Shown here piece by piece: positions 15,339 through 29,166 of a DNA stretch of 64,000 bases. The translations under genes and the position numbers were made by a program. The notes under the pieces are model-generated. The model did not search any database. It saw nothing but the letters and a program-made list of their open reading frames with translations, and was not told the DNA's origin. Source of the DNA: Verrucomicrobiota bacterium (GTDB lineage Bacteria > Verrucomicrobiota > Verrucomicrobiia > Limisphaerales > UBA9464); NCBI GenBank assembly GCA_947471985.1, contig CANIZL010000007.1, positions 1-64,000 of the forward strand, in the 5' to 3' direction. Numbering within the stretch: the first letter of the stretch is position 1; each line of letters begins with the position of its first letter.

Positions 15339-17852
15339 TTGCGGCAACTCCTCCAAAAAATGCTTCATCGCCAGCCACCCGCTTGGGTGCTCGGTGTGCT
15401 GGTCGCCGGAGCGTGCCTATCGCTCGGCCTGGCCTTCTGGGTCCGGCGCTGGGAACGGCAGCTGATGCTGCAGCAATGCGCCGAACTCACCCATGGTCAG
15501 ATCGAACGCCTCCAGATTTCAATTCTGCGCTCCATCGAAACGCTGCAATCCGTTGCCGCCCTCGCTCGTACACGTGGCCGGATCCAACACGCGGAGTTCC
15601 GGGACTTCGTGCACGCCGCGCTGTCGCGACAGCCGGAATTGCAGGCGCTTTCGTGGAACCCCGTCGTCACCGCCGCCCACCGCACGGAGTTCGAAGCTGC
15701 GGTGGCCGCCGATGGTTTGCCCGGATTTCAACTTCGCGAATTAACGGTGCAGGGCCTTCTGGTCCCGGCCGCCGCCCGTCCGGAATACGTGCCGGTCACC
15801 ATCATCGAACCGCTCGCCCCCAACGCGGCCGCTTTGGGATTTGATTTAAATTCAGACCTGCGTCGACGGGGCTCGCTGGAACAGGCCCGTGACCTGGGCC
15901 AACCGGTGGCCACCGCCCCCGTGCGGCTCGCGCAGGCCGATCGCGATGAAGCGGGTTTTCTGGTTCTGCTGCCCGTCTTCAGTGGCGAGTCGCCGATTCC
16001 GGCAACTCTGGAGGAACGCCGGGCCCGATTGGGCGGCTTCGCCGTCGCCGTGTTCCGCGTGCCGTCGCTGGTCACCGACGCCTTCCGTGAGTTAAAATCG
16101 CGGGGCATCGAGGCGCGCTTGCATGATCTCGCTGACGACGGTGAGTTGATCTTTGAATCGGGCCCCGCCCAAGACGGCACCGTGGCGTGGTTGGAAGTGG
16201 CCAGCCGAAAATGGGCCGTGGTATTCGCGCCCACCGCGGAATTCGCTGCCGCCCAAACGCACGGGCAGTCCTGGGTGGTGTTGTTCGGCGGCCTGGCCGT
16301 CACGATGCTCGCCACCGGCTATCTCGACAGCAGCCGTCGCCGCACCGTGGAGGCCGCCGCCGCGAACACCACGCTCCAGCAGGAGGTCCGCATCCGCCAG
16401 CAGGCCGAGCAAACCGCCGATCGGGCCAATCAAGCCAAGTCGGATTTCCTCGCCAGCATGAGTCACGAAATCCGCACACCTCTCAACGCCATCCTGGGAT
16501 ACGCCCAACTGCTGCGCCGCGATCGGCAACTCTCCCCCGAACACCGCGACGCCATCGCCGGCATCCACGCCAGCGGCCAACACCTCCTCGGGCTCGTCAA
16601 TGAAGTGCTGGATCTCGCCAAGATCGAAGCCGGCCGCATGGATCTCCAACCGGTGACCTTCGACGTAGGGGCCTTGGGGCGCAGTCTCTCGGCCACCTTC
16701 AAACCCTTGTGCGCGGCCAAGGGGATCCGTTTTCGCCTGACCTTTGATGCCGCGGCGGCGCATTGGGTGCGGGGTGACGAGGGCAAATTGCGCCAGGTCT
16801 TGATCAACCTGCTGGGGAATGCGGTGAAATTCACCCACGCCGGTGAAGTCTTCCTGCGCTTCGGTCCATCCGCCGGCGAACGCTGGGATTTCGAGGTCAT
16901 CGATACCGGTCTCGGCATTCCCGCGGAGGAACACGCGGATATCTTCAAGCCGTTTCATCAGGGCGGCGGAGCGCAACATCAGGGCGGCACGGGACTCGGA
17001 TTGGCCATCGCCCGACGACAGGTCGAACTGCTCGGCGGCACGCTGGAACTGCAATCCGAGCGGGGCATTGGTTCGCGCTTCTATTTCACACTACCGCTAC
17101 CCACCGTCAGCAGCGCCAACGGCGGCGCCACCACCCAACCGTATCGGCTCGCGCCCGGCGCGCGCGTCGGCGCCCTCGTGATCGATGATCGGGCGGAGAA
17201 TCGCCAGGTACTCGGCGGTCTCCTCGCCGCGCTCGGCTGTGAGGTTTGGCGGGCGGCATCCGGCGCCGACGCGGTGACGCTCGCCCGACAACACCGGCCC
17301 GGGATCGTCTTTCTCGACTGGTTGTTGCCCGGCCAAAGCGCGGCGGAAATCGCCCGGGACCTCCTCGCCCAACTGCCGGAAACCCCGCCCCGGCTGATCA
17401 TGCACACCGCGTCGCCACTCCAGCAACACCGCGACGATGCCCGCGCCGCGGGTTGCACGAGTTTCCTCGAAAAACCGTTCACCACCCAACAACTCTGCGA
17501 ATGCCTCAGCCACAATCTGGGGGTCTCGTTCGAACACACGGAGGCCATCGCGGAGCCGGAATTGTTGCACCGATCGGAACCCACCCCGGTGCAAGTGCCG
17601 GAATCCCTGTGTGCGCGTTTGGTGGTCGCCGCGGAATTGCACAGCACCACCGCGTTGAAAGCCGCGCTGCTGGAACTATCCACCCTCGGCCCCGAGGCCC
17701 ACGCGCTCGCCGATCACCTGCGCCAACAAATGCGCAGCTTCGATCTGGACGGCGTCCAGCACTCCTTGGCGCGCTACGTCACGCCCGGCGCCGATCCCCT
17801 TCCCTCCTCTCCTACCCATGAAGCCTGTCGCTCCCCCGAACCCATCGCGTGA
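15339..17852 (+). CDS. CHASE-domain hybrid sensor histidine kinase (CHASE-TM-HisKA-HATPase-REC)
   Basis: CHASE-like periplasmic region ([30 protein letters not shown]); [33 protein letters not shown] with [12 protein letters not shown]. Confidence 0.9.
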
Positions 17853-19344
17853 AAAGATCCTGCTGGTCGATGATGTGGCGGCGAATCTGTCCGTACTCAG
17901 CGCCGCTCTCGAACCGGAGGGCTATGAAATCCTCGTCGCCTCGGGCGGCGCACTCGCCCTGAAAGTCGCGGCCCGGGCCCGGCCGGACCTCATTCTCTTG
18001 GATGTCTTGATGCCGGAGATCGACGGCCTGGAAACCTGCCGCCGCCTCAAGCAGGACCCGGCGACACGCGATATTCCAGTGATCTTCATCACCGCCCGCA
18101 ATGAAATGGAAAGTGTCGTGGAGGGATTTCGGGCCGGCGGCGTGGACTACATTCTCAAGCCCTTCCAAACCGAGGAGGTGCTCAGTCGCCTCGCCACCCA
18201 CCTCGGACTCAGCCGCCTGACCCACGAATTACAGGAGAAGAACCGCGCCCTCGAGGCGCGCACGGAGGAGTTGCTGGCGGAAGTCCAGCGCCGGCGGCAG
18301 GCCGAGAACGCGCTGGAACAAGCCGATGCCCACTTGACCGTCCTCTCCGACCTGGCCGCCCAGCACTGGAATGTCACCGGACTCATTGGAGGCAGTGCGT
18401 CGATGCAAAAGCTGGTGGCCGACATCCGACGCCTTCATGCCTTTGCCAACACCAGCGTGCTCATCACGGGTGAGAGTGGCACGGGCAAGGAACTGATCGC
18501 CCGGGCCATCCACTTCGGCAGCCCGCGCGCCCGCGCGCCCTTCGTGCCCGTCAACTGCGTGGCCATCCCCGCGGAACTCGCGGAATCCATGCTGTTCGGC
18601 CACGTCAAAGGGGCCTTCACTGGCGCCACAACGGATCGCAAGGGCTACTTCGAATTCGCCCACGGTGGCACGTTGTTCCTCGACGAGATCGGCGACATGC
18701 CCGCCTCGCTGCAGGTAAAGCTTCTGCGGGTGCTGGAGGACGGCATGGTCACGCCCGTGGGATCTTCGCAGCCCCGGAAGGTCGACACCCGCATCCTCGC
18801 CGCGACCAACGCCGATCTCGACGCCCGCATCGCTCAGGGAGCTTTTCGTCAGGACCTCTATTTCCGGTTGGCCCGCTATCAGATCACGTCGACGCCCTTG
18901 CGGGAACGGGGCGAGGACGTGCCGCTGCTGGCGGCTCATTTCCTCAATCTCTTCGCGACGGAGATGGGCTTGAAGGCGCCGCGCTTGACCACCGAAGCGC
19001 TGGCCCTGCTCCAGACGTACGACTTCCCCGGCAACGTACGGGAACTGCGCAACATCATCGAACGCGCCCTCATCGAGAGCGGTGGCACCAACATCCTCCC
19101 GGCGCATTTGCCGCCGTTAAAACGCTTCGCCGTAACTGCCACCGTCGATACCGGCAGTCGTCGCCCGGCCAAAGCGCCTCCGATGGAATCCCTGCCGCTC
19201 AATCTGGCGGAGGCCGAGGATGTCCTCATCCAACGCGCCCTGCAGGAGACCGGCGGCAATATTGCCGACGCCGCGCGTCTGCTCGGAGTCCATCGCACCC
19301 GGATCTATCGCAAACTCGCACAGGAAGAACCCGCGCCCCGGTGA
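17818..19344 (+). CDS. NtrC-type response regulator (REC-AAA+ sigma-54 activator-Fis HTH)
   Basis: [10 protein letters not shown]; Walker [22 protein letters not shown] loop ([16 protein letters not shown]); Fis-type [24 protein letters not shown]. Overlaps the kinase 3' end by 35 bp. Confidence 0.95.
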
Positions 19345-19351
19345 GACCGAC

Positions 19352-19385
19352 TGTTTCAAGTGTTTCACCCGCGACATCTGAAACA
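19352..19385 (+). promoter_or_regulatory. Putative upstream activating sequence: TGTTTCA-N2-TGTTTCA-N11-TGAAACA
   Basis: TGTTTCA at 19352 and 19361; inverted TGAAACA at 19379; another TGAAACA at 19453. About 100 bp upstream of the -24/-12 element. Confidence 0.65.
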
Positions 19386-19440
19386 AACCGCCCAAAAAGT
19401 ATTCGCCACAAAATCAGTGAAAACACCAGCAAAAGCGCAC

Positions 19441-19459
19441 TTCAGGCACCCCTGAAACA
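19441..19459 (+). promoter_or_regulatory. Promoter-proximal palindrome TTCAGG-CACC-CCTGAA(ACA)
   Basis: Perfect 6-bp inverted repeat with 4-bp spacer immediately upstream of the -24 element. Confidence 0.5.
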
Positions 19460-19461
19460 CA

Positions 19462-19477
19462 TGGCACGAGGATCGCT
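19462..19477 (+). promoter_or_regulatory. Sigma-54 (-24/-12) promoter TGGCACGAGGATCGCT
   Basis: Consensus TGGCACG-N4-TTGCW with one mismatch (TCGC for TTGC) and correct 12-bp GG to GC spacing; downstream of a sigma-54 activator gene. Confidence 0.85.
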
Positions 19478-19528
19478 ATTGAGTGGGGCGTAGTTCATCA
19501 ACTTGCAACCTCCATCAATAGCCCGCTC

Positions 19529-20515
19529 ATGAAATACCTTCCGTCAGTCTTCTCCCTTCCGCGGCTGAACTCCGGCCGGTCATCCCACTGCCTCCTCGGT
19601 GCCGTCGCCACGGCGGCCGCCCTATCCACTCTCACGCCGGCTCTACAGGCGGAGGAAACCGCCGTCCAGCGGTTCCACGCGGTGAACAATCTGGAGTTCT
19701 CCGACAAATACCTCACGCCCCGCGGCATGCTGGTCCACAACGACGGCCTCACCTTTCAGTGGCTCGCGCTCGGACTCTTCAACCTCTACCACGGCGACTC
19801 CTTCATCAACGACATCACCCTGGTGGGCGGTGTCTGGAATGATTTCAGCTCCAGTCCGGTTTCGGTGCACCCGCCGTTCAACAGCAGTCCCAAGACCAGC
19901 TGGGTGGAGATCGATCCGATCGCCGGCATCTCGGTGGGCTTCGCGAAGAACTTCAAGCTCGATGTCACCTATACGGCCTTCAACATGCAGATCCTCGACA
20001 TCGGTACGTCGCAGCATCTGGAAACGAAACTGAGCTTTGATGATTCGCCCTACCTGAAGGCGTTCGCGCTGCATCCCTACCTGCTCTTCTGGAAGGAACT
20101 CGACGGCAAGGCCACGGCGGCTCAGGTGCCGTATTTCGTGGATCCTCTGGGCAAGAACCCGGGTGCGCCGCCGGACTCCAGCTACTATTTCGAACTCGGC
20201 ATCGCGCCGGGCTACACGTTCAAGGATCTTGGCGTAAAGGTCGAAGTCCCCATTCGAGCCCTGCTGCCGAACAAGGATTTCTACGGCGAGTATTATGACA
20301 AGGCGTCCACGGTTGGACTCTACGAAGTCGGCGCCAAGGTGACCGTGCCCCTCAAATTCGTGCCACCGGGGTACGGCTTCTGGAATTTCCATCTCGGTGT
20401 CCGCTACATGAGCTTTGAAGACAAGAACCTCCAAGGCATGCAGCAGTTCAATGCGCCCGGCAAGGCCGTGAAGGATGCCGTGCAATACTACTGCGGATTC
20501 AACGCGTTCTTCTGA
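19529..20515 (+). CDS. Outer-membrane channel/transporter-like beta-barrel protein
   Basis: Signal peptide; alternating beta pattern (YFELGIAPGYTFKDLGVKVEVPIRALLP, FWNFHLGVRYMSF), C-terminal aromatic; first gene after the sigma-54 promoter. Confidence 0.65.
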   Translation: MKYLPSVFSLPRLNSGRSSHCLLGAVATAAALSTLTPALQAEETAVQRFHAVNNLEFSDKYLTPRGMLVHNDGLTFQWLALGLFNLYHGDSFINDITLVGGVWNDFSSSPVSVHPPFNSSPKTSWVEIDPIAGISVGFAKNFKLDVTYTAFNMQILDIGTSQHLETKLSFDDSPYLKAFALHPYLLFWKELDGKATAAQVPYFVDPLGKNPGAPPDSSYYFELGIAPGYTFKDLGVKVEVPIRALLPNKDFYGEYYDKASTVGLYEVGAKVTVPLKFVPPGYGFWNFHLGVRYMSFEDKNLQGMQQFNAPGKAVKDAVQYYCGFNAFF

Positions 20516-20562: not shown

Positions 20563-21681
20563 ATGAAATTTTTCTCCCGGACATTTCCCCTGATCGCCAC
20601 ACTGGCCACCGCCACGCTGTGCTCCGGTCCCACCCGCGCCGCCGACAAAGTCGTCGCCGGCTTCATCTACGTCGGTCCCAAGGACGACTACGGTTACAAC
20701 CAGGCGCATTCCGAAGGCTGCCGCGGCGTGCAAAAGCTCTCGTGGGTCAAAGGCGTGGAAGAGGCCAGCGTGCCGGAAACCACCGCCGTACAGGAGACCA
20801 TGCGCAACATGATCAATCTCGACGGCGCATCGGTGCTCTTTCCCACCTCGTTCGGCTACTTTGATCCGCACATTCTGAAGGTCGCCAAGCAGTATCCCAA
20901 GGTGCAGTTCGTGCACTGCGGCGGCCTCTACACCGAGGGCAAGCATCCGGCCAATGTCGGCAGCTACTTCGGCTATATCGACGAGGCGGTCTACGTTGCC
21001 GGCATCGTCGCCGGACACGCCACGAAATCCGGCAAACTCGGGTTCATCGCGGCCAAGCCCATTCCGCAGGTGCTGCGCAACATCAACGCCTTCGCGCTCG
21101 GAGCGCAGAGCGTGAACCCCAAGGCCACCGTGCAGGTGATCTTCACGGGTGAATGGTCCATGCCCGTCAAGGAGGCCGAGGCGGCCACGTCCCTCATCAA
21201 CCAGGGCGTGGATGCCCTCACGTGCCACGTCGACAGCCCGAAGGTGATCCTCGAAACCGCGGAACGCCGGGGCATTTTTGTCACCGGCTATCATGCGAAC
21301 GGCGCGAAACTCGCGCCAAAGGGTTATCTCACCGGCGCCGAGTGGAACTGGTCGAAGGTCTACACGGATTACGCCGAAGCGGTGAAGGCGGGCAAGTCCC
21401 TCGCGGCCGGAACCATACCTCACCTCGTCCGCGGCGGCATCAAGGAAGGCTTTGTGAAGGTCTCCGATTACGGCCCGGCGGTGACCGACGCCGCCAAGGC
21501 CGACGCCGAGGCCGCCAAGGCCAAATTCCTCGCGGGCACGATGGTGATCTTCAAGGGACCGCTCAAGGACAACACCGGGAAAGAGATCCTCCCCGAGGGC
21601 AAGGACCTCGCCCAGCAGGCGTTGGAACTGGAATCGATGGGCTGGCTGGTGGCCGGCGTGATCGGCAGCACCAAGAACTGA
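20563..21681 (+). CDS. BMP-family (Med/PnrA-like) ABC transporter substrate-binding protein
   Basis: KVVAGFIYVGPKDDYGYNQAHSEG..., ANVGSYFGYIDEAVYVAGIVAGHATKSGKLGFIA; signal peptide. Confidence 0.92.
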   Translation: MKFFSRTFPLIATLATATLCSGPTRAADKVVAGFIYVGPKDDYGYNQAHSEGCRGVQKLSWVKGVEEASVPETTAVQETMRNMINLDGASVLFPTSFGYFDPHILKVAKQYPKVQFVHCGGLYTEGKHPANVGSYFGYIDEAVYVAGIVAGHATKSGKLGFIAAKPIPQVLRNINAFALGAQSVNPKATVQVIFTGEWSMPVKEAEAATSLINQGVDALTCHVDSPKVILETAERRGIFVTGYHANGAKLAPKGYLTGAEWNWSKVYTDYAEAVKAGKSLAAGTIPHLVRGGIKEGFVKVSDYGPAVTDAAKADAEAAKAKFLAGTMVIFKGPLKDNTGKEILPEGKDLAQQALELESMGWLVAGVIGSTKN

Positions 21682-21700: not shown

Positions 21701-22804
21701 ATGAGCGCCGTCGCCACCGCCCACGATCCGGCCGCCACTCGCGGGGCGCCGCGTACCGCGGTGCGGTGGCGGCCGGCGCTCGAAGCCGTCGTCCTGCCCG
21801 TCGGCGCCGTCCTCGTCGCCCTCATTCTGTTCGGCGCCTTCTGCCTGACCCAGGGGCGAAACCCGCTGGCCGTTTTCGCCGCCATCTATCAAGCCGCCTT
21901 CGGCTCGGGATATTCCTTTCAGAACACCTTGGTGCGCGCCGCGCCTTTAATGCTCACGGCGCTCTGCACCGCCCTGCCCGCCCGGCTTGGATTGGTCATC
22001 ATTGGCAATGAGGGCGCCCTGGTGGCCGGCGGCGTGGCGGCCACTGCCGCCGGGTTGCTCGTGTCGACCACCTCGCCCCTCGTCGTAATCAGCTGCATGC
22101 TTCTCGCCGGAATGATCGGCGGCGGCCTTTGGATCACGCTCGTCGGTTTCCTCTTTTACTTCCGCAGCGTCAACGAGACCATCAGCAGTCTGCTGCTCAA
22201 TTACATCGCCATCGCCGTGTTAAACCATTTGGTGAACGGCCCGATGCGCGATCCCAGCAGCCTCAACAAACCTTCCAGCTTTCCCATTCCCGAGGACAAA
22301 ATGCTACCCCTCCTCGGCAGCACCAACGTGCACTTCGGATTGATCTTCGGGATCATTGTGTGCCTGCTGGCCTGGGGGCTCATGGAGCACACCACCTTCG
22401 GTTTCAAAGTGCGCATGATCGGCGGCAACATCCGCGCCGCGCGCCTGGCCGGATTGCCCGTGACCCGGCTCGGTCTCATCACCTGCTTCCTCGCCGGCGC
22501 CGCGGCCGGTATCGCCGGCATGGTGGAAGTCGCCGCCGTTCAGGGCCGCGCCAACGAATCGCTCGCCGCCGGTTATGGCTACGCCGGGATCCTGGTGGCC
22601 TTCGTCGCCCGACATCGCGGACTGCCCATCATTCTCGTCGCCACCCTGCTCGGCGGCATCCTCGCCAGCGGTGGCATCCTGCAACGGCAGTTTCAATTGC
22701 CCGACGCCACCATCCTCGTTTTTCAGGGCCTCGTCTTCCTCGTGATTCTGCTCAGCGAGTCCCTCTACGGAAAGTTCAAATTCTTTAAGGAAACCGGCGC
22801 ATGA
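21701..22804 (+). CDS. ABC transporter permease (nucleoside/BMP-type importer)
   Basis: GLVIIGNEGALVAGG; AVQGRANESLAAGYGYAGILVAFVARHRGL; follows the BMP gene. Confidence 0.92.
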   Translation: MSAVATAHDPAATRGAPRTAVRWRPALEAVVLPVGAVLVALILFGAFCLTQGRNPLAVFAAIYQAAFGSGYSFQNTLVRAAPLMLTALCTALPARLGLVIIGNEGALVAGGVAATAAGLLVSTTSPLVVISCMLLAGMIGGGLWITLVGFLFYFRSVNETISSLLLNYIAIAVLNHLVNGPMRDPSSLNKPSSFPIPEDKMLPLLGSTNVHFGLIFGIIVCLLAWGLMEHTTFGFKVRMIGGNIRAARLAGLPVTRLGLITCFLAGAAAGIAGMVEVAAVQGRANESLAAGYGYAGILVAFVARHRGLPIILVATLLGGILASGGILQRQFQLPDATILVFQGLVFLVILLSESLYGKFKFFKETGA

Positions 22805-23727
22805 TCACTGAATCCATCGGCGGTTGGGGCGTGGTGATCGGCATACTCGCGGGCGCCGTGCGCGGCGGGACTCCGTTCCTGCTGGTCAGCTTGGGCGAGT
22901 GCCTCACGGAAAAGAGCGGCAAGATCAACCTGGGCCTGGAAGGCGTGCTGTTGATCGGCGCCATGAGCGCCTACGCCGTCTCATATCAAACCGGCAGTCC
23001 GTGGGTCGGGGTGGCCGCGGCGGGGATCGCCGGCGCAATTCTCGGGGCGATTCATGCTTTTCTGGTTTCGCGGCCCAAGGTCAATGACATCGCTGCCGGG
23101 ATTGCGATGCTGATCTTCGGGAGCGGCTGCGCGTTCTTCCTGGGCAAGCCCTATATTCAGCCCAGTGCTCCGCAATTGCCCGCGATCGCGCTCGGCGGTT
23201 GGTCGTCCATCCCCCAGGTCGAAGCCGCCCTGAAGATCAGTCCGCTCTTTTTCTTCGGCGTGGCCGCCGCCTTTCTGCTCCAAGCCTTTTTCCGCTCCAC
23301 CCGCTGGGGTATGCAGGTCCGCGCCGTGGGCGATTCGCCCGCCGCCGCCCAGGCCCTGGGCATCTCCGTCCCCCGCACGCGCTTTGCCGCCATCGTCACC
23401 GGCAGCGCCCTCGGCGGCATGGGCGGTGCGCATCTGTCCCTGTTCTATCCCGGCGCCTGGACCGAGGCCATTTCCAGCGGACAAGGTTTAATGGCCGTGG
23501 CATTGGTGATTTTCGCCCGCTGGAACCCGGTGAAATGTCTCTGGGCCTCGCTGCTGTTTGGCGGTGCCCAGGCGGTCGGGCCGTCGCTCCAGGCCGTGGG
23601 CATCAGCACCGGCTACTACCTGTGGAATGCCTCGCCCTACATTCTCACGCTGGGTGTGATGATCCTCACTTGTTCCCCCAAACGCACACTGATCGGTGCC
23701 CCCGGCGCTCTCGGCTCCTCCTCTTAA
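22801..23727 (+). CDS. ABC transporter permease (nucleoside/BMP-type importer, second subunit)
   Basis: GGTPFLLVSLGECLTEKSGKINLGLEGVLLIGAM; RAVGDSPAAAQALGISV; 4-nt overlap with the preceding permease. Confidence 0.92.
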   Translation: MITESIGGWGVVIGILAGAVRGGTPFLLVSLGECLTEKSGKINLGLEGVLLIGAMSAYAVSYQTGSPWVGVAAAGIAGAILGAIHAFLVSRPKVNDIAAGIAMLIFGSGCAFFLGKPYIQPSAPQLPAIALGGWSSIPQVEAALKISPLFFFGVAAAFLLQAFFRSTRWGMQVRAVGDSPAAAQALGISVPRTRFAAIVTGSALGGMGGAHLSLFYPGAWTEAISSGQGLMAVALVIFARWNPVKCLWASLLFGGAQAVGPSLQAVGISTGYYLWNASPYILTLGVMILTCSPKRTLIGAPGALGSSS

Positions 23728-23751: not shown

Positions 23752-24435
23752 ATGTCCCGACACGTCGATGCCGCTCCCTATCCCTGGCCCTACAACGGTG
23801 ATCTCCGTCCCGCCAACACGGCGATTGTGGTCATCGATATGCAGACCGATTTCTGCGGTCCGGGCGGTTATGTCGACACCATGGGCTACGATCTTGCCCT
23901 CACCCGCGCGCCCATCGGTCCGATTCAACGCGTCCTGAAGGCGGCCCGTGCGCAGGGCTTCCACGTGCTCCACACGCGCGAAGGACATCGACCGGATCTC
24001 GCTGATCTGCCCGCCAACAAGCGCTGGCGCAGTCGGCGCATCGGCGCGGGCATCGGCGACAGCGGTCCCTGCGGACGGATCCTCATCCGCGGCGAGGCCG
24101 GGTGGGAGATCATTCCCGAGCTGGCCCCCTGGCCCGGGGAATCGGTCATCGATAAACCCGGCAAGGGCTCGTTCTACGCCACGGATCTGGATCTGCTGTT
24201 GCGGCAAAAGGGGATTCAGAACCTCGTCCTGACCGGCATCACCACGGATGTCTGCGTGCACACCACGATGCGCGAAGCCAATGACCGCGGTTACGAATGC
24301 CTCCTGCTTTCCGACGCCACCGGCGCCACCGACCACGGCAATCACCTCGCCGCCCTGAAGATGATTCAGATGCAGGGCGGTGTGTTTGGCGCTGTGGCCG
24401 ATTCCGACGCCTTCATCCGCGCCCTGCAAGGTTAA
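23752..24435 (+). CDS. Cysteine hydrolase, isochorismatase-like family; biuret-hydrolase (BiuH)-like
   Basis: [43 protein letters not shown]; catalytic D/K/C candidates in [32 protein letters not shown]. Closely resembles biuret hydrolases as recalled. Confidence 0.85.
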
Positions 24436-24439
24436 TCCC

Positions 24440-25981
24440 ATGCTCATCCCGCCACCCGCCGAACGTCCGCTGCAGCCGCTCCCACTGGAGCTGGTAAAGC
24501 TCACCAAACGATTCGGCGCCTTCGTGGCCAACGATCAGATTTCGCTCAAGGTCCCGCCCGGCACCTTCCACGCCCTGCTCGGCGAAAACGGCGCCGGCAA
24601 AAGCACCCTGGTGAAATGCATCATGGGCTATCACCAGGCGGACGAGGGGGATCTGGTCATCGACGGTCATTCGCGTGAGATCCGCAGTCCCTACGACGCC
24701 TACCAATTCGGCATCGGCATGGTGTACCAGCATTTCACGCTCGTGCCCGCGATGACCGTGGCGGAAAACCTCGTACTGAGCCGTCCCAACACCCCCGGCA
24801 TCATCCGCTGGAAGGAGGAGCGGGAACACCTGCGTGAGTTCATGAAGACCGCACCGTTCCAGGTGGATCTCGATACCCCCGCCGGACAGCTCGCCGCCGG
24901 ACAAAAGCAGAAGGTGGAAATCCTGAAGCAGCTTTATCTCAACAGCCGCTTCCTCATCCTCGACGAACCCACCTCGGTGCTGACACCCGCGGAAGCAGAC
25001 GAAGTTCTGGGGTTGATCCGCGACAAGGTGAAGGCCGGGCACCTGAGTGTGCTGCTCATCACGCACAAGTTCCGCGAGGTCTTCGCGTTTTGTGACGAGA
25101 TCACTGTGCTGCGTCGAGGCAAATTCGCCGGGGCCGGCAAGGTGGCGGATCTGCGCGCCGACGACATGGCCGCCATGATGATGGGTGGCCAACGCGAGGC
25201 CCGGGTCGTCCGCAAACTCCCACGCGAACGCGGGCCCGCAGCGCTCGAACTCAAGGGCCTGTGCGCCAATCAGGACAACGGTCTGCCCGCGGTGAACCAG
25301 GTGAATCTCACGATTCATGAAGGCGAGGTCGTCGGCATCGCCGGTGTGTCCGGCAACGGCCAACGCGAATTGGTGGAAGTCCTCGCCGGCCAGCGTCCCG
25401 CCACCGGGGGCACCGTGCAGGTCCATGGCCAGGCGTATTCGGCGACCCGCGCCGAAGCCTTTCAGCACAAGGTCTTCCTGCTGCCCGAGGAGCCGCTGCG
25501 CAACGCCTGCGTTCCCGGGATGACCGTCGCCGAAAACATCGCCTTCCGCAGTTTTGATCGACCGCCCATCGGCCGGGCTGGTTGCTTTGTAAGTCGTCCC
25601 GCGATCCGCAAATTCGCCCAGGAATTGATCACCCGCTTTTCGGTGAAGACCCGTTCCACCGAGACGCCCATCGGGGATCTGTCCGGCGGCAACGTGCAGC
25701 GCGCGGTGCTGGCGCGGGAACTCGGGCCCGGAACGGCGCAGGTTCTGATCACCGCCAATCCCTGTTTCGGTCTCGACTTCGCCGCCGTGGAATCCATCCA
25801 CAGTCAGATCACCGAGGCCCGCAATCGCGGCGTGGCCGTGCTCCTTGTCAGCGAAGATCTCGATGAACTGCTCGCCCTGGCCGACCGCCTGCTGGTGATT
25901 TCCCACGGAGAGTTGGTTTACGAAACCACGCCGGCGCAGGCCGAAATCAACACCATCGGTCACCACATGGCCGGCCACTGA
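24440..25981 (+). CDS. ABC transporter ATP-binding protein with two NBDs (BMP/nucleoside-type importer)
   Basis: GENGAGKSTLVKC, LAAGQKQKVEI, LILDEPTSVLTP; second NBD GVSGNGQRELVEV, LSGGNVQRAVLAREL. Confidence 0.95.
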   Translation: MLIPPPAERPLQPLPLELVKLTKRFGAFVANDQISLKVPPGTFHALLGENGAGKSTLVKCIMGYHQADEGDLVIDGHSREIRSPYDAYQFGIGMVYQHFTLVPAMTVAENLVLSRPNTPGIIRWKEEREHLREFMKTAPFQVDLDTPAGQLAAGQKQKVEILKQLYLNSRFLILDEPTSVLTPAEADEVLGLIRDKVKAGHLSVLLITHKFREVFAFCDEITVLRRGKFAGAGKVADLRADDMAAMMMGGQREARVVRKLPRERGPAALELKGLCANQDNGLPAVNQVNLTIHEGEVVGIAGVSGNGQRELVEVLAGQRPATGGTVQVHGQAYSATRAEAFQHKVFLLPEEPLRNACVPGMTVAENIAFRSFDRPPIGRAGCFVSRPAIRKFAQELITRFSVKTRSTETPIGDLSGGNVQRAVLARELGPGTAQVLITANPCFGLDFAAVESIHSQITEARNRGVAVLLVSEDLDELLALADRLLVISHGELVYETTPAQAEINTIGHHMAGH

Positions 25982-26001: not shown

Positions 26002-26679
26002 ATGCCGAACTCCACTCTGATCACCGTCGCCGCGGAGCCTTATGCCTTCGAGTTCACGCCGGCCACTTGCGCGCTGTTGATCATCGATATGCAGCGCGAT
26101 TTTCTCGAGCCCGGCGGCTTCGGAGAAATGCTCGGCAACGATGTCGCGAAATTGCGCCGGACCATCGCGCCGAACCAGCAACTGCTCGCCGCGTGGCGGG
26201 CGAAGGGCTGGAAGGTCCTTCATACCCGTGAAGGACACCGACCCGATCTTTCCGATTTGCCACCCGCCAAGAAGGTGCGGGGCCGCAGCCCGATGACCAT
26301 CGGTGATCGCGGACCCATGGGGCGGATCCTCATCCGCGGTGAAGCCGGCCACGATATCATTCCGGAACTGTATCCGCTGCCCACCGAACCGGTGATCGAC
26401 AAACCGGGCAAGGGCGCGTTCTTCGCCACCGACCTGCACGCCATCCTGCAAAACTGCGGCATCCAACAATTGATCGTCACCGGGGTGACCACGGAAGTCT
26501 GCGTGAACACCACGGTTCGCGAAGCCAACGACCGGGGATACGACTGCCTCGTCCCGGCGGATTGCGTGGGCTCCTATTTTCCTGAATTCCAGGACCTGGG
26601 CCTCCGCATGATCCGCGCCCAGGGCGGCATCTTCGGGTGGGTTTCCCACTCGGACAATCTCCTCGCCGCGCTTCACTGA
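26002..26679 (+). CDS. Second cysteine hydrolase, isochorismatase-like family; possibly triuret/ureide hydrolase
   Basis: [59 protein letters not shown]; paralogue of the 23752-24435 product. Confidence 0.85.
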   Translation: MPNSTLITVAAEPYAFEFTPATCALLIIDMQRDFLEPGGFGEMLGNDVAKLRRTIAPNQQLLAAWRAKGWKVLHTREGHRPDLSDLPPAKKVRGRSPMTIGDRGPMGRILIRGEAGHDIIPELYPLPTEPVIDKPGKGAFFATDLHAILQNCGIQQLIVTGVTTEVCVNTTVREANDRGYDCLVPADCVGSYFPEFQDLGLRMIRAQGGIFGWVSHSDNLLAALH

Positions 26680-26727: not shown

Positions 26728-28329
26728 ATGAGTGAATCCAGCAAACCCAGAATCTGGGTACCCGGAGATTGGAACGCCTTCTTCGGTTTCGGCACGAACA
26801 TCCTCGTCAACCTGCTCACGCTCACCGGCCTGTTGCGGTTTGTGCTGAAGATGCCGGATGAGCTGGTCTTCGGGCGCATTCTGCCGGCGACCGGATTGAT
26901 GCTGTGCCTGTCCACCCTCTACTACGCCTGGCTGGCCTATCGCCTCGCGCAGCAGACCGGCCGCACCGACGTCTGCGCACTGCCCTCGGGAACCAGCGTG
27001 CCGCACATGTTCGTGGTGACCTTCATCATCATGCTGCCCATCACCCTGAAAACCGGGGATCCAGTGAAGGGGTGGGAGGCGGGACTCACGTGGGTGTTCC
27101 TGCAAAGCTTTGTCCTGATGATCGGCGGGTTCATCGCCCCAGTGATCCGCAAGATCACTCCGCGCGCCGCCCTGTTGGGCACGCTGGCGGGCGTGTCGAT
27201 CACCTTCATCTCCATGCGTCCGGCGCTGGAGATGTTCCTGACGCCGTTGATCGGATTGCCGTGCTTCGCGATCATCCTGCTCAGCTGGTTTGGCGGGGTG
27301 AAATACCGGGGCATTCCCGCCGGACTGGTAGCGATCGCCACCGGCACGGTGATCGCGTGGGGCTCCACAGCCCTGGGCGGCCACCACGGCGGCATGAGCC
27401 TGCAAGGCCTCACGGATTCGGTGACGAATTTCGGCTTCCACGTGCCCCTGCCCGCGTTCCAACACGTTTTCGCCGGCTTCGAATTCCTCGGCATCCTGCT
27501 CGTCACCGCGATTCCCTTCGGCATCTATGATCTCGTCGAAGCCATCGACAACGTCGAAAGCGCCGCCGTGGCGGGGGACAGTTTCCCGACGACCCGCGTG
27601 CTCACCGCGGATGGGGTCGTGAGTCTGATCGGTTGCCTCATGGGCAATCCCTTCATCAACGCCGTCTACATTGGTCATCCCGGTTGGAAGGCGATGGGCG
27701 GCCGCATCGGCTATTCGGCCGCCACGGGCATCGCGGTGATTCTCCTCTGCTGGTTTGGCACCATCTCGGTCATGCTGGCGCTGATCCCGGCGGTCGCGAT
27801 CCTGCCGATCCTGCTCTACATCGCGATGTTGATTGGCTCGCAGGCCTTTCAGGAGACCCCCCGAAGCCACGCGCCGGCGATTGTTCTCTCGCTCGTCCCG
27901 CATCTCGCCCATTGGGCAGTCACGCTGATCACCGGCGCGCTCGCTGCCGCCGGCACCATCACGGCGGCCCTGCCCCCGGACCAATTGGAGGCCTTGGTGG
28001 GACGGATGAAGAATGAAGGTGTGCTTTTCCACGGGCTGCAAGTCCTGGGCGGCGGCTCCATTCTGGGCGGATTAATCCTCGGCGCGATCGCGGCGTTTAT
28101 CATTGATCGAAATTTCTCGAAAGCCGCCGGCTTCGCGCTGGCGGGTGCGATCCTGACCTTCTTTGGCTTTATGCACGGCGAACGCATCGGCTTCGCCCAG
28201 ACGCCCATGGTTGCGCTGAGTTACCTGGTGGTGTCCGGGCTCCTGCTGGGTTGCGCCAAATTCGCCGCGGTGACGGCCCGGCCGGCCGAGGAGCCCGCCG
28301 AACCGCACGCGGCTGGCGCCCTGGCGTAA
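26728..28329 (+). CDS. NCS2-family permease (AzgA-like purine/xanthine permease)
   Basis: WVPGDWNAFFGFGTNILVNLLTLTGLLRFVL; CALPSGTSVPHMF; DLVEAIDNVESAAVAGDSFPTTRVLTADG; polytopic. Confidence 0.88.
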   Translation: MSESSKPRIWVPGDWNAFFGFGTNILVNLLTLTGLLRFVLKMPDELVFGRILPATGLMLCLSTLYYAWLAYRLAQQTGRTDVCALPSGTSVPHMFVVTFIIMLPITLKTGDPVKGWEAGLTWVFLQSFVLMIGGFIAPVIRKITPRAALLGTLAGVSITFISMRPALEMFLTPLIGLPCFAIILLSWFGGVKYRGIPAGLVAIATGTVIAWGSTALGGHHGGMSLQGLTDSVTNFGFHVPLPAFQHVFAGFEFLGILLVTAIPFGIYDLVEAIDNVESAAVAGDSFPTTRVLTADGVVSLIGCLMGNPFINAVYIGHPGWKAMGGRIGYSAATGIAVILLCWFGTISVMLALIPAVAILPILLYIAMLIGSQAFQETPRSHAPAIVLSLVPHLAHWAVTLITGALAAAGTITAALPPDQLEALVGRMKNEGVLFHGLQVLGGGSILGGLILGAIAAFIIDRNFSKAAGFALAGAILTFFGFMHGERIGFAQTPMVALSYLVVSGLLLGCAKFAAVTARPAEEPAEPHAAGALA

Positions 28330-28384: not shown

Positions 28385-28768
28385 ATGCCAATTGATTCCG
28401 AGCGGGTCCTCAAGCTCAACGATCTTTTTCAAGTAACCGGCTGGCAGCACAAGCTGCCGTGGCAGCCCTTCCAGAGCGGCGTGGATATCTACCGGCTCTA
28501 CGGCGACGGCATCTCGGGGCCCACGGCCGCCTTGCTGCGTTTCCGCGCGGGCGGACGGGTTCCGTTGCATGAGCACACGGGATTCGAGCATATCTTTGTG
28601 CTGGCCGGATCCCAGGTGGACGAAAACAGCCGCGCGGAAGCCGGTTCCCTGATCATCAATCCGCCCGGCACCAGCCACAGCATCCTCAGTGAAAACGGAT
28701 GCATCGCGCTCGCGATTTACGAAAAACCGATAAAATTCCTGAGTCCGTCCAACGCCAATCCCCCATGA
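28385..28768 (+). CDS. Cupin-domain protein
   Basis: AGGRVPLHEHTGFEHIFVLAGSQVDE...IINPPGTSHSILSENGC. Confidence 0.88.
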   Translation: MPIDSERVLKLNDLFQVTGWQHKLPWQPFQSGVDIYRLYGDGISGPTAALLRFRAGGRVPLHEHTGFEHIFVLAGSQVDENSRAEAGSLIINPPGTSHSILSENGCIALAIYEKPIKFLSPSNANPP

Positions 28769-29166
28769 GCCCGACCTCCGCCCCCGTTCTGCTCGCCGTC
28801 AACGGCACGTTGATGCGCGGCCTCGAACTCAATCCCAATCTGCTGGCCGTCCACGCCACCTTCGAACGCGAGACGGAAACGGAAACGGCGTATCGTTTGT
28901 GGTCGATCAACGATCGGCATCCGGCGATGGTGCGAGTGCGGGAGGGCGGCCGGGCCGTTCCGGTGGAGGTTTGGTCCGTACCGCCCGCGGGACTCGCCTA
29001 CATTCTCCAGCAGGAGCCGCCGGGATTGAGCATCGGCAAAGTCACCTTGGCCGACGGGAGCGTGGTACTGGGTGTGCTCGGTGAACCCATCCTCTGCGAA
29101 GACCAGCGCGAGATTACGTCCTTCGGGGGCTGGCGCGCCTACTGCGCCCACGGCAAGGGGCGCTGA
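28765..29166 (+). CDS. Stand-alone allophanate hydrolase C-terminal-domain-like protein
   Basis: LLAVNGTLMRGLELNPNL...YRLWSINDRHPAMVRV...VPVEVWSVPPAGLAYIL...IGKVTLADGSVVLGVLGE...ITSFGGWRAYCA; ATGA overlap with the cupin gene; no amidase domain. Confidence 0.8.
   Translation: MSPTSAPVLLAVNGTLMRGLELNPNLLAVHATFERETETETAYRLWSINDRHPAMVRVREGGRAVPVEVWSVPPAGLAYILQQEPPGLSIGKVTLADGSVVLGVLGEPILCEDQREITSFGGWRAYCAHGKGR

Follow-up and report, generated by a model that had tools for sequence, protein, structure and literature searches.

A predicted sigma-54 control region for triuret and biuret utilisation in Verrucomicrobiota

Introduction

What is controlled from the gap between a two-component regulator gene and the string of genes that follows it, and which protein works the switch? 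The question arises at positions 19352-19477 of the window, by which we mean the whole 64,000-nucleotide stretch of Verrucomicrobiota DNA analysed here. An earlier sequence-only reading had marked a near-consensus sigma-54 promoter in this gap, preceded by TGTTTCA/TGAAACA repeats that it took for the binding site of the regulator encoded at 17818-19344. We propose that 19352-19477 very probably controls an operon for triuret/biuret utilisation, and that the adjoining regulator works this region through a sigma-54 promoter. According to PMC7948467, triuret and biuret reach soils with urea fertiliser, and triuret has been proposed to arise from the oxidative breakdown of uric acid.

A two-component system adjoins the element

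Two genes upstream of the region encode the candidate signalling pair:

15339-17852, + strand: hybrid sensor histidine kinase with CHASE, HisKA, HATPase and receiver domains (Pfam; start codon uncertain)
17818-19344, + strand: NtrC-type response regulator with receiver, sigma-54 AAA+ and Fis-type HTH domains (Pfam and motifs)

The regulator has the domains of a bEBP. Its receiver (PF00072, E 7e-28) carries a phosphorylatable Asp at D62, its AAA+ domain (PF00158, E 1e-66) retains the Walker A/B and loop motifs (GESGTGKE at 218, GAFTGA at 265 and LFLDEI at 286), and a Fis-type HTH (PF02954, E 3e-12) is also present. The kinase orthologue adjoins the regulator in most relatives. Among the NCBIfam matches listed, no named EBP family gives the regulator a score that reaches its cut-off. 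An identification as NifA was rejected (TIGR01817, 310.9 bits against a cut-off of 528.85), the only resemblance to a NifA site being the spacing of the inner half-sites described below. A sigma-54 promoter requires an AAA+ activator; the gene for sigma-54 itself, rpoN, was found in the window's genome (PF04552, E 5e-60) and in all 19 genomes checked. Three genomes of more distant relatives (G286, G289 and G298) have two rpoN-like genes each.

A putative composite enhancer precedes a predicted sigma-54 promoter

The intergenic region contains the following predicted elements:

19352-19385, + strand: 34-bp composite enhancer (predicted UAS), four half-sites with a 9-bp period, defined by conservation
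19352-19358, + strand: half-site 1, TGTTTCA, from sequence and kept in relatives
19361-19367, + strand: half-site 2, TGTTTCA, from sequence and kept in relatives
19370-19376, - strand: half-site 3, CGCGACA on the + strand and TGTCGCG on the - strand, from sequence and kept in relatives
19379-19385, - strand: half-site 4, TGAAACA on the + strand, from sequence and kept in relatives
19462-19477, + strand: predicted sigma-54 promoter TGGCACGAGGATCGCT, with the -24 GG at 19463-19464 and the -12 GC at 19475-19476

The words on which the sequence-only reading relied, TGTTTCA at 19352 and 19361 and TGAAACA at 19379 and 19453, all lie where it placed them, as does TGGCACGAGGATCGCT with its single mismatch and its GG/GC spacing. 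The unit that it drew from them, TGTTTCA-N11-TGAAACA, is also present, but comparison with relatives identifies the true unit as the 34 bp at 19352-19385: a set of four half-sites, one of which (19370-19376) had been overlooked, rather than a dyad with stray repeats. Likewise, the palindrome TTCAGGCACCCCTGAA (TTCAGG-CACC-CCTGAA, 19441-19456) exists in the window, but we reject both it and the TGAAACA at 19453 as functional sites, as relatives do not share them. Most relatives in the order do have in common a block of about CCnGYAAACA some 40 bp upstream of the promoter (within 19386-19461 in the window).

Read along the forward strand, the 34-mer has the layout TGTTTCA-N2-TGTTTCA-N2-CGCGACA-N2-TGAAACA, a nested inverted repeat with two half-sites per strand and a strict 9-bp period. 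When the half-sites are pooled, the consensus is TGTYKCR, in which TGT and C are nearly invariant. DNA has a helical repeat of about 10.5 bp, from which the 9-bp period differs. The inner pair, half-sites 2 and 3, gives TGT-N10-ACA and fits a putative NifA-like dimer; additional dimers of an oligomer could occupy the outer two.

TGGCACGAGGATCGCT departs from TGGCACG-N4-TTGCW at one position, agreeing at 11 of the 12 consensus positions. It lies 76 bp downstream of the 34-mer and about 50 bp ahead of the start of a porin-like gene, and transcription would be expected to begin near 19488. Across the 21 tabulated sites from the window and its relatives, the distance from the start of the element to the promoter TGG is 109-114 bp in 18, 98-99 bp, or one helical turn shorter, in two, and 105 bp, off by about half a turn, in one (G289). 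Apart from this one off-phase site, the inverted repeat thus keeps a helical-phase-constrained distance from its promoter, as expected of a UAS. GG-N10-GC is present in all 21, as the scan itself required; the window's promoter has near-consensus flanks, and promoters are kept at orthologous positions. The activator features of the regulator, the rpoN genes and this near-constant spacing together support the sigma-54 mechanism that had been suggested for the region.

An IHF site between enhancer and promoter was considered and rejected, since matches in the window's family are no better than in shuffled spacers. The exact IHF consensus occurs between element and promoter only in G286 and G289 (L090 and L091; Verrucomicrobiaceae-like), and three other sites match it at 8/9 positions, which leaves IHF as a lead there.

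The operon encodes predicted triuret and biuret hydrolases

Downstream of the promoter, the following genes lie on one strand:

19529-20515, + strand: outer-membrane beta-barrel (porin-like), first gene of the operon, from predicted structure
20563-21681, + strand: BMP/PnrA-like ABC substrate-binding protein (PF02608)
21701-22804, + strand: ABC permease 1 (PF02653)
22801-23727, + strand: ABC permease 2 (PF02653)
23752-24435, + strand: BiuH, biuret amidohydrolase by family (NF050097; PDB 6azo)
24440-25981, + strand: ABC ATPase (PF00005), its start inferred within the ORF 24380-25981
26002-26679, + strand: TrtA, triuret hydrolase by family (PDB 6xix; selectivity residues)
26728-28329, + strand: permease, family-less by sequence, conserved with trtA, with a low-confidence model
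28385-28768, + strand: ChrR-like cupin protein (PF12973), between the permease and C-domain genes
28699-29166, + strand: stand-alone allophanate-hydrolase C-terminal domain protein (PF21986, E 2e-40), start uncertain

We expect the gene string from the porin onward to form one transcript. Most relatives show the gene order kinase-regulator-[element]-porin-trtA-permease-biuH-C-domain.

Two enzymes suggest what the operon is for. BiuH scores 422.8 bits against NF050097, above the cut-off of 370, and matches PDB 6azo at E 5e-121. The best PDB match of TrtA is 6xix, a structure from the TrtA study PMC7948467, and the window protein's residues F40, N46, E165, Q207 and I210 correspond at a constant offset of 5 to F35, N41, E160, Q202 and I205 of that study. 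TrtA-type residues thus accompany a TrtA structure as best match. At the same five selectivity positions, the BiuH homologue has the BiuH-type Y, Y, D, Q and V. No full-length allophanate hydrolase (AtzF) scored above the curated cut-off in the window's genome.

Transport is assigned less directly. The porin-like protein matched no Pfam family; its AlphaFold model (pLDDT 78) aligns with outer-membrane porins in Foldseek at E 5e-7. The permease at 26728-28329 has no Pfam, NCBIfam or significant PDB sequence match, yet it is conserved with trtA at 64-90% identity in relatives and possibly represents an uncharacterised family of triuret/biuret transporters. Because its model is of low confidence (pLDDT 53), the fold gives only a weak UraA/SLC26-type hint. 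Among the syntenic loci, a BMP-type ABC importer is found in the window, G068 and G065 only (L052 and L056 for the latter two), the others having just the family-less permease. A similar cupin frame, read from DNA, appears near biuH in G289 (L091).

Element and regulator occur together across genomes

We queried 97 genomes of the window's order with the regulator protein. Thirteen, the window's own included, have an orthologue with about 64% identity or more, and in all of them the element lies at an almost constant distance ahead of a GG-N10-GC promoter. The 34-mer stands before the porin gene with at most three mismatches in 12 of these; the thirteenth (G031) has a degenerate copy of 26 bits, found only by a sequence model trained on it. 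The scores that this model gives to the sites hold by construction, because it was built from the same sites; the telling result is the gap that separates them from all other sequence, where the model reaches at most 20.6 bits, with exactly one strong site in each genome. Among the 84 order genomes without a close regulator there was a single pattern match (G095), which we reject as a real site since it sits inside an ORF. Regulator homologues of about 48-56% identity occur in G076, G053, G085 and G080, and as one paralogue in G027. The operon is missing in each case, and the C-terminal region of most of these homologues is clearly different. Wherever the element occurs, the regulator keeps the recognition helix (V/I)(H/N)R(T/S)RIYR.

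The presence of the element therefore tracks that of the regulator, as expected of a UAS, and does so even where the two are unlinked, which supports the suggestion that the site is the target of the 17818-19344 regulator, still as a prediction. The further suggestion of a regulon motif holds in part: the motif is genuine, but in the window's order there is one element per genome, a single-site switch. A wider regulon in the window's genome is rejected, as it contains just one strong site.

Across the phylum, trtA is present in 10 of 394 genomes. Seven more distant genomes have a diverged element together with the regulator (58-62% identity), the two not being adjacent in five of them, and in six of the nine other trtA-bearing phylum genomes a regulator of 60-62% identity accompanies a diverged element before a GG-N10-GC promoter. 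Diverged elements keep the plan of TGTnnCr half-sites with an inner spacing of N10 or N11. In G286, G289, G298 and G318 the regulator gene is not upstream of the element, which still fronts porin-trtA; in G318, trtA and biuH are on separate contigs, each behind an element and promoter of its own. The cultured Brevifollis gellanilyticus (NBRC 108608), which NCBI now lists as Prosthecobacter gellanilyticus (Verrucomicrobiia), has the element TGTTGCGCGTGTCGCAATGCGAAACAGGACGCACA upstream of the porin gene and the promoter TGGCACCTGCCGTGCA 113 bp after the start of the element; its regulator gene is downstream, not beside the element. The remaining trtA genomes, G185, G374 and G395, have no element and no regulator of comparable similarity: the best match reaches 45-48%, or none is found at E <= 1e-90. 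A further 78 trtA loci from other records also gave no convincing element.

The class-level sites were for the most part first recognised by eye in intergenic DNA. In a control scan, most of them led, or tied for the lead, within their 14-20-kb locus, but the shuffled maximum was exceeded only by L087, L090, L091, L092, L119 and, with a margin of one point, L089; L096 equalled it, and the two G162 sites were weak. In three loci with no element and no close regulator (L093, L094 and L095), trtA lies directly behind an apparent amidase-like frame read from DNA.

Alternative explanations

The neighbouring two-component regulator almost certainly works the predicted switch. The alternative that best survives is that the 34-bp element is bound by a different, unlinked regulator, such as a global nitrogen or purine regulator, with the neighbouring system controlling something else, and we consider it unlikely. 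The binding of the neighbour is predicted from co-occurrence, with which another co-inherited DNA-binding protein would be compatible. Other modes of control do exist, as PMC12625717 annotates a GntR-family regulator gene on biuH-bearing contigs of ammonia oxidisers. Against such a binder, order genomes without the regulator are also without the element, cases in which the two lie in trans keep the pairing, and the conserved cluster encodes no other DNA-binding protein. A global regulator is a poor fit because the element occurs once per genome. The promoter is moreover of a type that needs an AAA+ activator, and the 17818-19344 regulator is its conserved neighbour.

Far less probably, the inverted repeat would belong to the end of the kinase-regulator pair, as a transcription terminator or another end-of-gene feature. 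Its symmetry and its start only 8 bp past the regulator stop codon in the window would suit that role, but no T run follows, and in other relatives the element lies up to about 170 bp after the stop. The distance that is kept runs from element to promoter, not from element to regulator stop. In G286, G289, G298, G318 and Brevifollis, the element fronts the porin gene (and in G318 also biuH) with no regulator gene ending there.

The idea that short words cluster here by chance, in an intergenic gap richer in AT, would fit the promoter matches (2 in the window, where shuffling gives an expectation of 0.81; not significant alone) and the TGTTTCA count (8 in the window against 5.15 expected, unremarkable alone), but it is refuted to the point of being scarcely credible because the dyad is conserved: the exact TGTTTCA-N11-TGAAACA lies at the orthologous position, between regulator orthologue and porin gene, in 10 of the 12 other order genomes. 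A genome-wide scan finds TGTTTCA-N9..13-TGAAACA once in 6.38 Mb, at the 19352 site; four of the eight TGTTTCA copies of the window fall inside 108 bp, and no further four-half-site match above 22/28 exists elsewhere in it.

Discussion

Following established EBP biology, we propose that control by the adjoining regulator would proceed as follows. The membrane-bound hybrid histidine kinase, with its extracytoplasmic CHASE sensor domain, would signal to the 17818-19344 regulator by phosphotransfer. The phosphorylated regulator would bind the 34-bp site of four TGTYKCR half-sites, and its AAA+ domain would remodel and open the closed complex of sigma-54 RNA polymerase at the -24/-12 promoter 76 bp downstream. 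The genes transcribed as a result would serve to pass triuret and biuret through the outer membrane, import them and hydrolyse them. Because the kinase has a CHASE domain, the inducer is likely an extracellular small molecule; triuret or biuret would be the obvious candidate, or else a nitrogen-status signal.

In kind, the switch belongs with the known EBP/UAS/sigma-54 modules (NtrC, NifA, ZraR and NorR), with which it shares a receiver-AAA+(GAFTGA)-Fis HTH regulator and a UAS in the form of an inverted repeat that lies some 80-120 bp ahead of a GG-N10-GC promoter. It differs from them in that four half-sites with a 9-bp period form one 34-bp nested palindrome, a packed enhancer that is somewhat unusual. 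The TGT-N10-ACA spacing of the inner pair is that cited for NifA sites (PMC6296734). CbrB of Pseudomonas is likewise a two-component EBP with a multi-subsite enhancer and a similar TGTT word (TGTTAC / GTAACA subsites; PMC6296734), but its sites consist of three non-palindromic subsites 20-25 bp apart and serve a global carbon regulon, whereas the element described here is a palindrome of four closely packed half-sites in front of one operon. Control of a single operon is common elsewhere: it holds for 65% of the EBPs of Clostridiales, where UAS are mostly found 100-250 bp upstream (PMC6615313).

The trtA-biuH clusters of Herbaspirillum, Rhizobium and ammonia oxidisers share TrtA and BiuH with the window, and those of ammonia oxidisers also a BMP-type nucleoside ABC transporter; the available parts of the two reports (PMC7948467 and PMC12625717) describe no sigma-54 promoter or two-component regulator for them. 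What sets the window apart from these clusters is a C-domain protein that stands alone, together with a cupin, an outer-membrane barrel and a permease of unassigned family; no full-length AtzF hit in its genome reaches the cut-off. Our literature search found nothing linking biuret with sigma-54 and two-component systems, nor, in the open-access literature searched, any regulator assigned to triuret/biuret catabolism, of which this is apparently the first. More tentatively, and with somewhat less than even confidence, we suggest that the CHASE kinase and regulator may be the first known system dedicated to sensing extracellular triuret or biuret, and that the four half-sites of the compact enhancer may seat at least two dimers and so nucleate the AAA+ ring at one operon.

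By their predicted function, the operon genes would give certain Verrucomicrobiota access to triuret and biuret as sources of nitrogen. With its conserved regulator, motif and promoter, the switch can be tested directly, and Prosthecobacter (Brevifollis) gellanilyticus NBRC 108608 is a cultured carrier of it. In addition, the regulator-site pairs provide an evolutionary series for how an NtrC-type protein may read a packed four-half-site enhancer.
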